Made by a program: the position numbers and the translations under genes
From: Clostridium ljungdahlii DSM 13528
GTDB taxonomy: Bacteria > Bacillota > Clostridia > Clostridiales > Clostridiaceae
NCBI RefSeq assembly: GCF_000143685.1
Contig: NC_014328.1
Span: 1,984,001 to 2,048,000 of the forward strand
Length of the DNA: 64,000 bases
Direction: 5' to 3'
Notes under the pieces: model-generated
Seen by the model: only the letters and a program-made list of their open reading frames with translations
Databases searched by the model: none
What the model was told of the DNA's origin: nothing
Shown here: piece after piece, positions 19,699 through 25,702 of the stretch
How positions within the stretch are numbered: the stretch's first letter is position 1
How the letters are laid out: each line of letters opens with the position of its first letter

Positions 19699-20724
19699 TT
19701 AAACTAATTTTTTATTAAATATATTTGAAAGACCAGTATTTTTAATTCTATTTTGTATTTCTTCTCTGTCTATGGAATATAGACCTTTTTCTTTCATTCT
19801 GTTAAAAAATTCTGCACCAGCAAAAGTATATCTATTTTTTCTTCCTTCTTTAGTGTGTATTTTGGAAGTTGCATAGCTTATGATATCTCCAATAGCTGTA
19901 TTAGTTGGAAGTGTTAGAGTAGGAATATTGAGTGCACATTTTACGGCATTATGACCGGCAAGAGATCCTGTACATATAGCTTCTGTGTGACCTACAAAGA
20001 GACCACTTTTTTCTCCACCGCAAAATAAGTTATCTATGCCATTTACTTTTAAGTCCACAGAAACGGGTGCGATGGAAAGATATCTTATGGAATTTCCCTT
20101 ACCTCCAGAATACGGATCTATGAATTTGACATTTTCTAGACCTTGTATTTTACGCAACTTTTCTAAAGGATAATAAGATGTCATTAACTTTACATGGCCT
20201 GTATCTAAAAGTATTACATTTTGTGCAAATTCTTTTAAAGCATACTGCTGGCATACTTTAGCCTTTAACTTATCCATATTTACATCTTCTTCTGGAACTT
20301 TAAGTACTACTGCACCTTTTTCTTCAATTTCATGTAAGAGATTTTTATCTATAGTATCTTTAGCAAGTTTACAGGAACCGCTGAAAGCTCCGTAAGTTCC
20401 ATCTAATCTCTCGCCGTGAAGATCTTCTACTCCAGCACATTTGCTTATGCTTATTCTAGGTCCGAAGGAAGGACATCTAAGTATGCACATGGAACAGCCG
20501 TTACCATATTTTATACAGTTTCCCATAGGACCTGTGGAACCTGTAGTCTCAACAAAGGCATCTGCTTCTTCATAATCTCCATTTGAGGTATATATGCCTT
20601 TTATTTTAGTCCCTTCCATTTTTACATCCACTACTCTTGATATTAGCTTTAGTTTTATGCCTTTACTTAAAATATATTTTCTAACAGCTGGTTCGATTTT
20701 ATTTACATCATAGAGCCAAGCATG
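19699..20724 (-). pseudogene. 3' part of an FAD-dependent oxidoreductase gene split by an intervening element
   Basis: This frame encodes the C-terminal 340 residues or so of a flavoprotein. It has Cys-rich segments YGNGCSMCILRCPSFGPR and ISKCAGVED, the FAD-contact segment GIDNLFCGGEKSG, and a helical end. It has no start and no FAD-binding N-terminus; those lie at 24300-24557. The frame continues upstream into the recombinase stop codon. Joining residue 86 of the N-terminal part to the Trp codon at 20718 gives one continuous 425-residue protein across the seam HKHA-WLYDVNK. GTG 20631 would be a possible but RBS-poor internal start. I class it as interrupted rather than decayed. Confidence 0.85.
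20719..20724. repeat. Left attachment core (att, recombinase side)
   Basis: AGCATG, read CATGCT on the coding strand. It encodes His-Ala at the fusion point and lies 28 bp from the recombinase stop codon. Confidence 0.7.
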
Positions 20725-20751
20725 AACATGATTTATGGTATTGCAGCAGAT

Positions 20752-22374
20752 TTAGGGAATACTAGGATGAAACTTGTGTACTTTTTCACTTCCCCATAAG
20801 TAAACATCAATATCACCTGTATTACCATTCCAGTAGATTTTGTCAATTATGTTTTCTAAGATATGCCTTTTGATTGACACATTTTTTATTAGGGCAAAGG
20901 ATGAATTGAAATTTTCTAAGGCTTTTTCTATTATATCTAGATCTACATTTTCTTCTTCAATATTTTTAGACTTGTCTAATTTCAAATTTAAATCCTTTAT
21001 TGTTTTTGCTAAGTTTTCTATTTTATTTAGGATAAATTCAGAAGCAGGGGAGTCATCTGCATTTATATTTGATAATTGTTGCAACAATGTGTTCATTTGG
21101 GTACTTTTATCTTCAATTTCTCTTTTTAGCATTTCAACAAAATTATTTTTAATAGAAGAAGTTGATTCATTTTTACGATATTGTAGTTCTTTTAAAAGCT
21201 TATTTATATTTAGTTTTTTAATATTTTCAGCAATAGCTTTTTCAATTTTTGGACCGTTGGCATTAGGGTTAACACATCTGGTTTTTCCAGAATGGGCTTT
21301 CATTGTACACACATAATAGTAAGTTCTTTTATTTTCACTTTTTTTAGATCTTCCATAAGAGACACGCATGGGTGAACCGCACAAAGCACATTTTAATATT
21401 CCAGATAATAAAGATTTTTTAGATGTTCCCTGTCTTGGACTAGATTTCCTTTTATTTTTATCTAATTGAAATTGCACTTCTAGCCAGGTAGTACTTTCAA
21501 TAATTCCTTTATGCTTGGCAACAGCAGCAATCCACTCACTTGTACTTCTAGTTATATATTTTGAATTGCGTTTATTATATGTAATGATTCCATTGCCATT
21601 AGGTATGCCGCAGGTAGTTATACCTAAGTCTTTTAAATATTTAAAAACTAAATCGTTTGACTTTACATAAACAGGATTTCTAAGAGTATCATTTATTGAC
21701 ATAGATGAGAAGTCTCCACCATTTTTGCCTTTTATGTTATTAGTAAGTAGATATTTAAGAACTAGGGATATAGAACCAAATTCCATGTATTTACCATATA
21801 TCAATTTAACTTTATCCAATTCCTTTTGTATAGGAGAAAGTTTATGCATAAATTTTTGTTTCATTTCAGAGTTATAATAAGTTACTTTCTTAGAGTTGAA
21901 ACCAAGGGGAGTTTGACCTCCCAGCCAGCGTCCGGATTTTGCAAGTTCTAACATATTATCTCGAACACGTTCTGCAATAGTTTCGCGCTCTAACTGTGCA
22001 AATACAGAAGCTATATATACCATGGCTTTACCCATAGGGGTACTTGTATCAAATTGTTCTTTTACACTTACAAAAGATATATTATGTTTCTGTAATAATT
22101 CTAATGTAGTAGAAAAATCAGCAACATTTCTACTAATCCTGTCTAACCTGTAGCATATTAAAAAATTAAATTTTTCTTTTCTAGCATCTTTTAAAAGTTC
22201 TTGAAATCTAGGTCTATTTGTATTGCCGCCAGAAAAACCTTCATCTTCATATATTATAAAACTGCTTATTTTCAAATTATTCTTTGCATATTCTTTACAT
22301 ATTTGTACCTGACTTTCTATAGACTCACCTTTGCATGTAAACTTGGATTTTCTGCTGTATACAGCTGCTATCAT
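20752..22374 (-). CDS. Large serine recombinase (site-specific integrase/excisionase)
   Basis: 540 residues with all the parts of a large serine recombinase. The N-terminal resolvase domain starts with AAVYSRKS (likely catalytic Ser10), then YEDEGFSGGNTNRP and CYRLDRISRN. A recombinase domain follows near residues 160-290. A zinc-ribbon region has LKCALCGSPM and a later C-x-C-containing stretch, followed by a coiled-coil-rich end. It should cut both att sites by a 2-bp staggered break and integrate or excise the surrounding element. It is the last gene before the left att core and runs in the same direction as the split host gene. Its stop codon is in frame with the host-gene remainder. Confidence 0.93.
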   Translation of the reverse strand: MIAAVYSRKSKFTCKGESIESQVQICKEYAKNNLKISSFIIYEDEGFSGGNTNRPRFQELLKDARKEKFNFLICYRLDRISRNVADFSTTLELLQKHNISFVSVKEQFDTSTPMGKAMVYIASVFAQLERETIAERVRDNMLELAKSGRWLGGQTPLGFNSKKVTYYNSEMKQKFMHKLSPIQKELDKVKLIYGKYMEFGSISLVLKYLLTNNIKGKNGGDFSSMSINDTLRNPVYVKSNDLVFKYLKDLGITTCGIPNGNGIITYNKRNSKYITRSTSEWIAAVAKHKGIIESTTWLEVQFQLDKNKRKSSPRQGTSKKSLLSGILKCALCGSPMRVSYGRSKKSENKRTYYYVCTMKAHSGKTRCVNPNANGPKIEKAIAENIKKLNINKLLKELQYRKNESTSSIKNNFVEMLKREIEDKSTQMNTLLQQLSNINADDSPASEFILNKIENLAKTIKDLNLKLDKSKNIEEENVDLDIIEKALENFNSSFALIKNVSIKRHILENIIDKIYWNGNTGDIDVYLWGSEKVHKFHPSIP

Positions 22375-22542
22375 TTTTTAAAATCACATCCTCAAAAATT
22401 AATATAGTCCTATATTAAATTACATGGCCTTAATTAACTTTTTATTCCTTTTTAAATTAAAAATTTTCATCACACAATAAGTTGAGGTGCATATAATATT
22501 GTAGGTAAATATGCTTAAAAAATAGCTGGGAGATGTTATTTT

Positions 22543-22716
22543 ATGGCCAAGCTAATAAAAGTAAGAATGCATTATTCAAAAGACCCTAAAATAATGGATG
22601 AACTGGAAACAAGAATGGCAAGAGTTTTTGCAAGAGCACTTATAAGCGAATTACGTGTTGAACAAATAGATGAACTCATAAAAACATTAAAAGAAAGACA
22701 AACATGGAAGAAATAA
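22543..22716 (+). CDS. 57-residue small protein inside the element
   Basis: A small basic, helical protein (LIKVRMHYSKDPKIMDELE, then FARALISELRVEQIDELI), too short for standard ORF lists. It has GGGAG upstream. It is divergent from the recombinase and first of a rightward set. A regulator or excision partner is possible from position; no family recognised. Confidence 0.55.
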   Translation: MAKLIKVRMHYSKDPKIMDELETRMARVFARALISELRVEQIDELIKTLKERQTWKK

Positions 22717-22798
22717 ATAAGTATAGACATATTGAAAACCATTCAAACTAAAATTAAGAATATGAAAAAAGTGAGTGTACCTTCAGAGGAGGTATAAG

Positions 22799-22924
22799 AT
22801 GGAAAACAAAACTAAAATGAGATTTGAAAATATAGAACAGAGAGATAAGCAGTTAAAAGAGTTTAGAACTATAAAATATATTATAGATAAGAAAAATCCT
22901 TTAATAGTATGGATATATATTTAA
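22799..22924 (+). CDS. 41-residue small protein inside the element
   Basis: A charged 41-residue ORF (MENKTKMRFENIEQRDKQLK, then a short hydrophobic end) with an excellent AGAGGAGG site 7 nt before the ATG. No family recognised. It lies just before the Gp157-like gene. Confidence 0.5.
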   Translation: MENKTKMRFENIEQRDKQLKEFRTIKYIIDKKNPLIVWIYI

Positions 22925-22947
22925 AAAGTAGTAGGGGAGGAATGAGT

Positions 22948-23442
22948 TTGAGTAAACTATATGAGATTTCAGAGAGATACAGAAATTTGGAAGATTTATT
23001 GGACAATCCGGAGTTAGAAAATGCCAAAAGTGATATAGAAAGATCCTTAGATTCAATTAACGAGGAATTTAATGTAAAAGCTGAAAATATTGCTAAAATA
23101 ATTAAATCGAAAGGTACGGACATTAAAGGTTTGGAGGAGGAAATTAAAAGACTTCAAGATAGAAAAAAAGTAACAGAAAATAAAGTCTTAAATTTAAAAA
23201 GTTATTTATTTGACCATATGAAGATATTAAAGAAAGAAAAAATAAATGGTAAACTATTTACTCTTTCAATAAGAAAAAATCCACCTTCTGTTAATGTAAT
23301 AGATGAAGATGCTATTCCACAAAGGTATAAGATTCCTCAACCATATAAACTGGATAAAACGGCTATATTAGAAGACTCAAAACAAGAAATAAAGATAGAT
23401 GGTGTGGAAATTAAACAATCCACAAGTTTAAGTATTAGATAG
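22948..23442 (+). CDS. Siphovirus Gp157-like phage protein
   Basis: 164 residues. The start SKLYEISERYRNLEDLLD, the long heptad-rich middle (IKGLEEEIKRLQDRKKVTEN, LKSYLFDHM) and the C-terminal FTLSIRKNPPSVNV followed by IPQRYKIPQPYKLDK all match the Gp157 family found in early regions of siphoviruses. It is linked in the literature to phage recombination modules and once to phage resistance. The TTG at 22948 is 7 nt from GGGGAGG. The ATG at 22942 is too close. Confidence 0.8.
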   Translation: MSKLYEISERYRNLEDLLDNPELENAKSDIERSLDSINEEFNVKAENIAKIIKSKGTDIKGLEEEIKRLQDRKKVTENKVLNLKSYLFDHMKILKKEKINGKLFTLSIRKNPPSVNVIDEDAIPQRYKIPQPYKLDKTAILEDSKQEIKIDGVEIKQSTSLSIR

Positions 23443-23457
23443 AGGAGGTGAAGCAAT

Positions 23458-24180
23458 ATGAATAAGGAGGTACGGCTTTTAAAAGCAGATGAAATTGAAA
23501 TAAGGGTACAGAGCTTAAAGAAAACTCCAAATGGTGTAGGGTGTGTTTTGCTCTTATATAAAGATGCAAGAGTTGATATGAAAATACTTGATGAAACCTT
23601 TGGAATGACAGGGTGGAAAAGAACCCATGAACTTATAAATGGAAGACTATTTTGTAATATAGATATTTGGGATGATGAAAAGAAACAGTGGATTAGAAAG
23701 CAAGATGTGGGAGTGGAAAGTTATACGGAAAAAGAAAAAGGTCAAGCTAGTGATAGTTTTAAAAGGGCAGGATTTAATATTGGAATAGGAAGAGAACTTT
23801 ATACAGCTCCTTTTATATGGATCGGTTTACAGCAGGGAGAATTTGCTGAAAAAGATGGTAAAGTTACTCTGTCGCCAAGGGTACATTTTCAAGTTAAGTC
23901 AATAGGATACAATAAGAATAGGGAAATTAATCAGTTGGAAATTCAAGATAATTATTATAGATTAAGATATTCTTTAGGAAAAGCTGCTGGTGACCAGAGT
24001 AAAACAGTTACTATAGACAACAAAGACGTAATAAATAAAAATGAACTTCACTGTGAAAAGTGTGGAAACATCATATCGGAAAAAGTAGCAGATTATAGCA
24101 ATAAAAAATTTGGAAAAATGTTATGTATGAATTGTCAGGTAAATATCAAAGGTGCCCGAATTTTAAGTACGGCAAAATAA
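23458..24180 (+). CDS. Rad52/Sak-like single-strand annealing protein (phage recombination)
   Basis: 240 residues. The core has VGCVLLLYKDARVDMKILDE, a GMTGWKRTH segment and KGQASDSFKRAGFNIGIGRELYTAP, the last typical of Rad52-like phage annealing proteins. A C-terminal zinc ribbon is visible (CEKCG, then CMNCQ). It would anneal single-stranded DNA for phage-type recombination. It starts 16 nt after the Gp157-like gene with GAGGAGGTGA upstream. The Rad52-like assignment is motif-based. Confidence 0.68.
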   Translation: MNKEVRLLKADEIEIRVQSLKKTPNGVGCVLLLYKDARVDMKILDETFGMTGWKRTHELINGRLFCNIDIWDDEKKQWIRKQDVGVESYTEKEKGQASDSFKRAGFNIGIGRELYTAPFIWIGLQQGEFAEKDGKVTLSPRVHFQVKSIGYNKNREINQLEIQDNYYRLRYSLGKAAGDQSKTVTIDNKDVINKNELHCEKCGNIISEKVADYSNKKFGKMLCMNCQVNIKGARILSTAK

Positions 24181-24216
24181 ACAGAGTTCTTGAAACCATA
24201 TGGATACTTATTATAG

Positions 24217-24256
24217 ACATGTCAAAACATCCTAGAAAGATGACCTTTTGACATGT
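24217..24256 (+). terminator. Hairpin at the element's right end
   Basis: Arms ACATGTCAAAA (24217-24227) and TTTTGACATGT (24246-24256), perfect 11 bp, then TGCTTTTATTT. It is probably the terminator of the rightward element genes; it is also 44 bp from the att core. Confidence 0.65.
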
Positions 24257-24272
24257 TGCTTTTATTTGAATT

Positions 24273-24557
24273 TTAATAAGATCGCAATACTGTAAGTGGA
24301 GCATGCTTATGACCGGGAAAATCTAAATTTTTGTGTCTAGTAAGGCTGTCTGTGATGCTTATTAGATCTCCTGCTCCAAGTGCAGTGATTTCTTCTGCAG
24401 CAGTGTATCTGCCGTTATTTCTCATTATTCCTCCTACATTTCCTAGGCCAAGTACCATGTCGGTTTTTTCATATATAACTACATCAGCACCTGCTTTTTT
24501 AGCAGATAAAGCTGCGGCACATCCAGACCATCCTGAACCAATTACTATTATTTTCAT
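24273..24557 (-). pseudogene. 5' part of the split FAD-dependent oxidoreductase gene
   Basis: The first 86 residues are the native N-terminus of an FAD/NAD(P) flavoprotein. It has the Rossmann motif IIVIGSGWSGCAAALSAKKAGADV and YEKTDM, then GNVGGIMRNNGRYTAAEE. After His-Ala at the att core, eight foreign residues and a stop (24273) follow from element DNA. The start ATG has AGGGGG upstream and lies 12 nt after the reductase-like gene, so the intact operon would be reductase followed by flavoprotein. The C-terminal part is at 19699-20724. Confidence 0.85.
24300..24305. repeat. Right attachment core (att, host N-terminal side)
   Basis: AGCATG again. The coding-strand codons CAT GCT end exactly at residue 86 of the host protein. 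Confidence 0.7.
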
Positions 24558-24569
24558 AAAAAATACCCC

Positions 24570-25556
24570 CTATAATAATCTTCTACCTTTAAATAAATCT
24601 CTTGGATCCATTTGCACCTTACATAGTCTTCTAACTATGTCACCATCATAGTGTTTGGTGCAGCTTGCACATATTCCTTCACCGCAGCTCATTTTGGAAT
24701 TATTGCAGCAGGAAAAATTTATGGATTTGTTTTTTGAATTGTTCATTTTATCTATAAAATCTATAATTTCATAACTCATTATATCCGGGCCCCCACAGTG
24801 AACTAAATTTATGGAATTTTCCCGCAGAATTTTTTTAAGCATTAATTTGAATTTCTCAGAGAGATTTCCCTCGTCTAATATAGTGCAATCTAACACTTTT
24901 GATTTGCATTCTTTAAAATAATCCTCATAAAAATTTTCTTTAAATTGTGTGTCAATAATAGATATAACCTTGTTCTTATTGGAATATAATTTTTTCATAA
25001 CTGGAATAGAAGGAGCAATTCCTATACCTCGGGCTATAATTAATGATGTACCATCTTTAGCATTAGAAATATTTGAAAGTCCCATTATTCCATTTGAAAA
25101 CGGTCCTCTAAGAAGTATTTTATCGCCTTTATTTAATTTAAAAAGAGCTTTAGTTTTTGTGCCGCTTGATTTTATTGCAACATCTAGGGTATTATTCGTA
25201 TTATCTGCATTTATAATAGAAATTGGTACGTCGTAATAATTTACACTTTCTTTATTTCTTAAAAATACGAAGCTTCCAGCATTGGATAATTCTCTTACTA
25301 GGTTTTCTGGTGCTTCTAAAGTAAACATGCAAAGAGAATCTTCAGCTACTTTTTTGTCTAATATAGGACAATCATAAGTTTTTCTTAAATTTTTTGCTTT
25401 TTTACCATTGGAAATATATTGTTCATATATACAAACTCCACACCAGTCTTTGCATTGGCAAAACTCTTCACCGGAAAGTTGAGAGCATAATATACAGTCA
25501 AGAGTCTCTGCCAGGTGGCATGGACAATAGTCACTTCCTGCATCAATACAATACAT
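24570..25556 (-). CDS. Ferredoxin-reductase-like / PyrK-like iron-sulfur flavoprotein
   Basis: 328 residues. The N-terminal 50 are rich in Cys (CPCH, CILC, CQCKDWCGVC), likely a metal or Fe-S site. Then comes an FAD/NAD(P)-binding reductase module: YDVPISI, LLRGPFSNGIMG, IIARGIGIAPSIPVMKKL, LVHCGGPDIMSYEIIDF. The end has CCNNSKMSCGEGICASC with a later Cys, as in PyrK/SudB-type [2Fe-2S] subunits. It would pass electrons between a nicotinamide cofactor and the flavoprotein encoded next, whose gene is interrupted. While the element is integrated the pair lacks one subunit. Confidence 0.82.
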   Translation of the reverse strand: MYCIDAGSDYCPCHLAETLDCILCSQLSGEEFCQCKDWCGVCIYEQYISNGKKAKNLRKTYDCPILDKKVAEDSLCMFTLEAPENLVRELSNAGSFVFLRNKESVNYYDVPISIINADNTNNTLDVAIKSSGTKTKALFKLNKGDKILLRGPFSNGIMGLSNISNAKDGTSLIIARGIGIAPSIPVMKKLYSNKNKVISIIDTQFKENFYEDYFKECKSKVLDCTILDEGNLSEKFKLMLKKILRENSINLVHCGGPDIMSYEIIDFIDKMNNSKNKSINFSCCNNSKMSCGEGICASCTKHYDGDIVRRLCKVQMDPRDLFKGRRLL

Positions 25557-25702
25557 GTAAATAACCTCCGTTGATATTATTATAAAACTATGTACAATAT
25601 TAGATTATTTTTCAGAATGATTTTTGTTACTTTAAAATGAAAAACTATGTTAGAATAAAAACATTGACTGCTAAATTTAATTACTTAGATAGGGGTGTTT
25701 TG

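Follow-up and report, generated by a model that had tools for sequence, protein, structure and literature searches.

The question raised by this locus is whether a flavoprotein gene cut in two by a recombinase-bearing element is a dead gene or one that can be put together again. The locus lies in a stretch of 64,000 nucleotides of Clostridium ljungdahlii DSM 13528 (contig NC_014328.1, positions 1,984,001 to 2,048,000), hereafter the window, whose own numbering is used for all coordinates. The gene encodes a FAD-dependent oxidoreductase (a GidA/TrmFO-like flavoprotein; hereafter FAD) and belongs to an operon whose first gene is FES, coding for a PyrK/AsrB-like FAD/NAD iron-sulfur (Fe-S) reductase (24570–25556, minus strand; NCBIfam NF004470, above cut-off). 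FAD was found on the minus strand in two pieces: an N-terminal half of 86 codons (24300–24557), with Pfam GIDA and FAD-binding matches, and a C-terminal half of 339 codons plus stop (19699–20718; Pfam GIDA, 2.4e-24), which is free of internal stops. Between them lies an element of 3,581 bp (20719–24299), with counterparts at the same site in relatives and with the hexamer AGCATG at both junctions (left core, 20719–20724; right core, 24300–24305). With a probability of about 0.7, we consider it a minimal skin-like gene-intervening element that is excised in the sporulating mother cell.

That the element splits FAD exactly, as the initial annotation had stated from the AGCATG copies 3,581 bp apart at the two joints, was confirmed by direct reading of the sequence. 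The N and C halves were then aligned separately, without joining them, to genes unsplit at this point, taking every fetched locus with both halves no more than 100 bases apart (some of them interrupted elsewhere in the operon). The gap between the end of the N half and the start of the C half was 0 in 36 of 36 comparisons (35 distinct loci), no residue being lost or gained; most of the 120 listed C-half homologs are 425 amino acids (aa) long, which equals 86 + 339, and in the close relative G131 the halves are contiguous in the DNA and 96.5% (N) and 99.1% (C) identical to those of the window. The claim that removal of the element restores the frame exactly thus stood up to the alignment with intact homologs that had been proposed as its check. 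The element encodes a large serine recombinase of 540 aa (20752–22374, minus strand), which runs in the same direction as the host gene and, by arithmetic, has the frame of the C half at its stop, as had been annotated. Its closeness to the left core was also correct, although not the figure of 28 bp, since the stop codon (20752–20754) is 27 bases away. Judged from the sequence, a recombinase beside a core, a frame-continuous seam and a short direct repeat are features of skin-like elements, with which we file this one, by working principle, as a candidate member.

The two halves might also be made as separate polypeptides that assemble while the DNA stays as it is; the C half possesses an ATG of its own in the attachment arm and follows the recombinase gene, and a 350-aa protein with its start in the arm is predicted for it in the window. 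We regard this as very improbable, given that the split point falls inside the GIDA domain, which Pfam matches in both halves, that in a relative (L059) the stretch from the preceding stop to the seam contains no ATG, and that a single frame is present in 35 loci.

Insertion at this codon was found to be recurrent. When the C half alone was searched in 206 genomes of the family, 187 held it at E ≤ 1e-60, and at least nine of the 206 presented a C-half open frame of only ~350–378 aa away from contig ends (G000, which is the window's genome, G129, G156, G093, G168, G107, G059, G177, and G040); two further short frames lie at contig ends and were not counted in the nine. The N half was found in all eight genomes besides the window, in an open frame of only 91–120 aa, and the junction codon was identical in all nine elements, the window included. 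Because nine elements occupy one codon and were recovered with the C half alone, insertion at the same codon (site A) is more than chance. Element lengths were 3,581, 3,090, 6,879, 13,582, 22,976, 41,732, and 34,080 bp in the seven cases with both halves on one contig. Next to the cores, the left arm hexamer TATTGC (20739–20744) and the right arm hexamer GCAATA (24284–24289) form an inverted repeat; among nine same-site elements the left, C-side hexamer was exact in six and had at most one mismatch in eight, whereas the right, N-side hexamer was exact in four and had at most one mismatch in all nine.

A scan of named genomes by recombinase alignment yielded at least 565 relatives, and the analysis covered the 80 best of them. 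In 10 of these 80, FAD was split at site A (after codon 86): C. ljungdahlii ERI-2, Tepidibacter formicigenes, Clostridiaceae 14S0207, Clostridium sp. BSD9I1, C. tunisiense, C. vincentii, Clostridium sp. C8-1-8, C. frigidicarnis, Clostridium sp. DSM 8431, and Clostridium sp. SIG253. Eight of these coincide with those already found among the family genomes; C. vincentii and T. formicigenes are additional, the locus of the latter holding the N half only. The recombinases of the ten other site-A species and strains were related (51–91% identical) and formed one clade (support of 99 in the Shimodaira-Hasegawa-like approximate likelihood ratio test, SH-aLRT) of 12 tree rows, comprising 11 from site A plus L124, which has a flank of only 64 bp and no assigned site. 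The recombinase stands beside the C half in some site-A elements and beside the N half in others, reading toward the nearby core, and the two placements (e.g., L033, L036, and L039 vs. L037, L042, and L043) are interspersed in the tree while the core site is constant.

Selection was compared between the window and strain ERI-2, both of which bear the element. The ratio of nonsynonymous to synonymous divergence (dN/dS, or omega) was 0.062 for the N half, 0.035 for the C half, 0.20 for the recombinase, and 0.05 for the Erf-like gene of the element; with sites treated as independent, the departure from neutrality reached P 2e-19 for the halves (6 nonsynonymous vs. 38 synonymous changes) and P 7e-14 for the recombinase (50 vs. 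56). All ten half-pairs available (window plus nine, T. formicigenes excluded) were full length with no internal stop. By these comparisons the split halves are not decaying and are under strong purifying selection, a result for which simple gene death was rejected. The synonymous divergence (dS) of the element (0.17–0.20) was near that of its host (0.13–0.17), which is consistent with vertical inheritance, the elements in the window and in ERI-2 likely descending from a common carrier. ERI-2 has lost the Gp157 gene and kept the recombinase, a 57-aa gene, the arms, and both halves; a 41-aa open reading frame (ORF; 22799–22924, plus strand) is identical in the two strains.

The same figures bear on the view that the element is an ordinary defective prophage in a conserved attB, the gene being simply broken here and excision accidental or absent. 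Conserved genes are a common location of the attB sites that serine integrases use, and two phage genes remain in the element, one for a Siphovirus Gp157/Gam-like protein (22909–23442, plus strand; PF05565, 4.8e-48; phrog_253), seen as an alignment gap in ERI-2, and the other for an Erf/Rad52-like single-strand annealing protein (23458–24180, plus strand; phrog_1097, 1.4e-19; Rad52_Rad22, 0.0002). Moreover, three same-site elements are of prophage size (23–42 kb), and the closest phage integrase found, that of Terrisporobacter phage TPELB_ph1 (PP197244.1, L137), is 49.7% identical to the recombinase. With omega at 0.035–0.06 for the halves between two element-bearing strains, with 10 of 10 half-pairs intact and with the recombinase also constrained, we consider a merely broken gene improbable, although it deserves to be kept in mind.

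The Resolvase, Recombinase, and zinc-ribbon domains of the recombinase (PF00239, PF07508, and PF13408) all passed the Pfam cut-offs, and residues S10, R8, R76, R79, and R82 were invariant across nine sequences, as was the context of Ser10, the residue described as the nucleophile of CD1231 (PMC5025042). The recombinase fell below the NCBIfam equivalog cut-offs for XisF, of the fdxN element family (113.6 vs. 375 bits), and for the SCCmec Ccr recombinases (CcrB, 135.5 vs. 900 bits). A second relative, L002, 42% identical, occurs elsewhere in the same genome (G000 C1 3850050–3850514).

Divergent from the recombinase, an unannotated gene (22543–22716, plus strand) encodes the 57-aa protein, a candidate recombination directionality factor (RDF). 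It had no match in Pfam, PHROG, or NCBIfam, and its profile found nothing convincing in the PDB (best E 0.016, an interleukin enhancer-binding factor 2 homolog). A family profile built from seven seeds recovered 30 ORFs at E 1e-3 in round one and 47 after four rounds, corresponding to the window, one duplicate locus, and 45 ORFs in the loci of 44 of the 80 relatives; 43 of these 45 were on the strand opposite the recombinase and 44 lay upstream of it, some up to 7 kb away, and no hit was obtained among reversed sequences or 1,554 control ORFs. Database relatives are hypothetical or bear the name 4-alpha-glucanotransferase (P0122, P0125, P0126, P0139, P0144, P0145, P0162, P0164, and P0188), which is unlikely to be right for proteins of ~55 aa. 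The PDB hits of the profile, followed up to E 10, did not include the chain that contains the SP-beta integrase together with YotN, the latter presumably SprB. Known RDFs share no significant similarity according to the authors of PMC5025042.

A promoter-like site, CACA-N15-CATATAATA (22471–22498, plus strand), precedes the 57-aa gene and is a candidate for the mother-cell type, sigma-E or sigma-K; the C. difficile examples in PMC3789822 include CATATAAT with AC for sigma-K and ATA-N16-CATATATA for sigma-E. The sigma-K-type motif mACm-N14..17-CATAnnnTA occurred within 120 bp upstream of 11 of 46 family ORFs, four of them from closely related elements, as compared with 27 of 1999 other ORFs and 2 of 80 recombinase genes. 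This layout recalls the C. difficile skin element, in which the RDF and not the recombinase is described as controlled by sigma-E and SpoIIID (PMC5025042), and, more generally, the account of SP-beta and C. difficile skin in PMC5595907, with a constitutive recombinase and a sporulation-controlled RDF. Taken as a whole, the recurrent position and strand of the family, about a quarter of which has a mother-cell-type promoter motif upstream, mark the 57-aa protein as a candidate excision factor for the recombinase.

The distribution of the host gene itself was compared with that of SpoIVA. In the family, FAD was present in 185 of 194 SpoIVA-positive genomes vs. 2 of 12 SpoIVA-negative ones (Fisher 2e-10), the two exceptions being 78 and 70% complete; in a phylum sample of 398 genomes, with lists matched by eye, the figures were 110 of 336 vs. 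2 of 62 (Fisher 1e-7; exceptions 75 and 61% complete), and both tests are inflated by shared ancestry. Before FES, a conserved promoter-like block with a SpoIIID-like core was found, GTAACA...AATAATCTAATATTGTA (25593–25630, minus strand). GTAACA was present in 30 of 46 distinct FES upstream regions vs. 2.3 in shuffles, and the block AACA-N14..17-NATAnnnT[AG], a loose pattern counted with no shuffled control, in 43 of 61 loci, some of them duplicates. We treat the SpoIIID-like core as a lead. A strict operon promoter pattern, searched in 13 genomes of the genus, matched in 8, at one site each and always before this operon, so that it pointed to no wider regulon. Since FAD occurs almost only in SpoIVA genomes and its operon has this upstream block, it is a candidate sporulation gene and looks sporulation-linked rather than simply metabolic. 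The earlier description of an excisable switch in a metabolic redox gene is well supported by comparison as regards the switch, while its emphasis on metabolism is probably wrong, as the gene tracks SpoIVA. An oxidoreductase of C. perfringens, CPR_1769, is named as sporulation-associated in PMC4433262; its identity with FAD is not claimed.

Site A is not the only point at which related elements enter this operon. Seven of the 80 relatives (L062, L064, L069, L070, L071, L073, and L076) lie inside FAD at the motif GHTEA, near codon 333 (site B), and in 13 others the first FES codons follow directly beyond the recombinase (12 by motif scan, plus L072 by translation). For six of these 13 (L084, L089, L094, L099, L133, and L072) the rest of FES and an unsplit FAD stand a few kb away on the far side, which in the other seven is outside the fetched stretch. 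In all, the operon is the target of 30 of the 80 best-matching relatives (10 site A, 7 site B, 13 FES). On the tree, the site-B recombinases require three label changes and the FES-site recombinases four.

Other relatives adjoin sigK (5), yabG (2), yunB (2), and a manganese catalase gene (1), as named by NCBIfam, or genes named by Pfam (two T2SSE genes and one NMT1-type gene). Grouping by eye added nine substrate-binding proteins, four ABC ATPases, and two nucleotidyltransferases; Pfam confirmed L126 among these, and two of the ten fragments submitted to Pfam, L098 and L115, taken by eye for transporter parts, had no match. Twenty-two of the 80 fell in no target class; in four of these, the neighbouring gene is named by Pfam and may be intact. 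Transporter substrate-binding-like genes were, by eye, a second recurrent target, adjoining ten relatives (L098, without Pfam match, L102, L111, L112, confirmed by Pfam, L120, L122, L128, L132, L134, and L135).

These targets are relevant to a further possibility, a phage-type regulatory switch that excises on another cue such as stress, oxygen, or DNA damage, comparable to active lysogeny. A redox enzyme pair as the target and the transporter-like neighbours of several clade members speak for it; the association of FAD with SpoIVA, the enrichment of a mother-cell-type promoter motif before the small gene, and the relatives beside sigK, yabG, and yunB speak against it, and we hold it to be unlikely.

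Among 80 loci from viral collections, site A was found in 5 and site B in 2, 25 ended at a contig edge, and 48 had none of the three motifs. The loci L165 and L172 are the ends of one IMG/VR contig of 63,083 bp from a strain close to C. ljungdahlii, in which site-A and site-B elements apparently occupy the same FAD gene and divide it into three. In ERI-2, 1.6 kb beyond the complete C half, a second partial copy of it (residues 240–299; L057, 14319–14498) follows a site-B-type arm, as a relic of a site-B junction. An attP-like pattern was met in 26 stretches of viral contigs, none with a related recombinase, and was treated as chance. No report of FAD as an integration target was found in the open-licence literature.

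Several observations weigh against a sporulation-timed switch inherited with its host. The C-half dS between the intact G131 and the window (0.134) is as close as that of ERI-2 (0.145), and site-specific re-insertion may be an alternative to vertical inheritance of the element; in FES, ERI-2 is closer to the window than G131 (dS 0.128 vs. 0.215). The full C. difficile SpoIIID consensus, given as KRTAACARK in PMC5025042, was not enriched before the operon, 8 of 9 positions being matched in 27 of 46 upstream regions vs. 21.3 in shuffles. The full promoter motif was missing from 35 of 46 members of the small-protein family, and the -10 of the small gene is weakened in ERI-2, with A for the first C (AATATAATA). 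About 16 of the 80 relatives, mostly assigned by eye, adjoin transporter-like or secretion-like genes, so that the targets of the clade extend beyond those known from sporulation. FAD was not identified in the main texts of the sporulation papers searched on C. difficile and C. acetobutylicum, and acetogenic clostridia, according to PMC8102284, are seldom observed to sporulate. Even so, the exact seam, the repeated same-site insertion, the relatives at sigK, yabG, and yunB, the purifying selection on the halves and the recombinase, and the conserved candidate excision factor together make an excisable switch well supported by comparison.

Excision itself, the excision-factor role of the 57-aa protein, and the timing are what we infer from these comparisons. 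According to the mechanism that we propose, a large serine recombinase element would have integrated at an attB inside the apparently sporulation-linked flavoprotein gene and then shrunk to 3.6 kb, keeping intact the recombinase, the arms, the small partner protein, and the two halves of the gene. The recombinase alone would be directional, keeping the element in place during growth. In sporulation, mother-cell sigma-E/K with SpoIIID would lead to production of the 57-aa protein, which may bind the recombinase and turn it toward excision by attL x attR recombination; this would restore the flavoprotein frame exactly, permitting pairing with the Fe-S reductase FES, whose operon carries the promoter-like block with a SpoIIID-like core. 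Since the mother cell dies, it could lose the element at no cost.

A broader interpretation, for which we see about even odds, is that this two-gene redox operon of spore formers is a hub of developmental DNA rearrangement comparable to sigK. One element clade would use three attB sites in it (the first codons of FES and, in FAD, a point after codon 86 and one near codon 333), even twice in one gene copy; its members would share an unnamed family of ~55-aa excision factors under mother-cell promoters, the host excising them only in the dying mother cell, and the element of the window would be among the smallest of these switches, with little beyond recombinase, excision factor, and arms.

Comparable arrangements exist in other systems. 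In cyanobacteria, a redox or nitrogenase-related gene is restored in a terminal cell type when the fdxN, nifD, or hupL element is excised. These elements differ from the present one in hosts and cell types, and the window's recombinase is below the XisF cut-off. The skin element in sigK of C. difficile, with recombinase CD1231 and RDF CD1234 (PMC5025042), is alike in its large serine recombinase beside one gene moiety, its catalytic Ser10, and its small partner protein (72 aa for CD1234 vs. 57 aa for the candidate here), a mother-cell programme being proposed for both; here, however, the target is a redox gene and not sigK, there are ~5 genes instead of 19, and we infer excision. In Bacillus subtilis, spsM is likewise restored by precise serine-integrase excision of SP-beta with a small RDF (PMC4191935; SprA/SprB, PMC5595907), SP-beta being, unlike the element of the window, a full active prophage. 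The gin element in gerE of B. cereus is also gene-intervening and has a recombinase and an RDF, but is presented in PMC5595907 as 28.6 kb long, without phage genes, with three recombinases, and in another target. The yin element in yabG of a Clostridium botulinum strain is clostridial and sits in a sporulation gene, next to which two of our relatives also lie, whereas it is described as a putatively functional prophage and concerns a different gene (PMC10747680).

If our interpretation is right, developmentally timed gene rearrangement would take in a redox enzyme pair in addition to regulators and coat genes, and an operon that is widespread and unannotated would gain a suggested function in sporulation. 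Pairs of a recombinase and a candidate RDF would become available as a family whose target sites are known, and, with many recombinases accompanied by matched small proteins and attachment sites, directionality control would be testable across the whole clade. Constrained halves in element-bearing sister strains may offer a general criterion for distinguishing live switches from dead prophages. FES itself is interrupted by relatives in other species, and the pattern is more general than the initial annotation could reveal.

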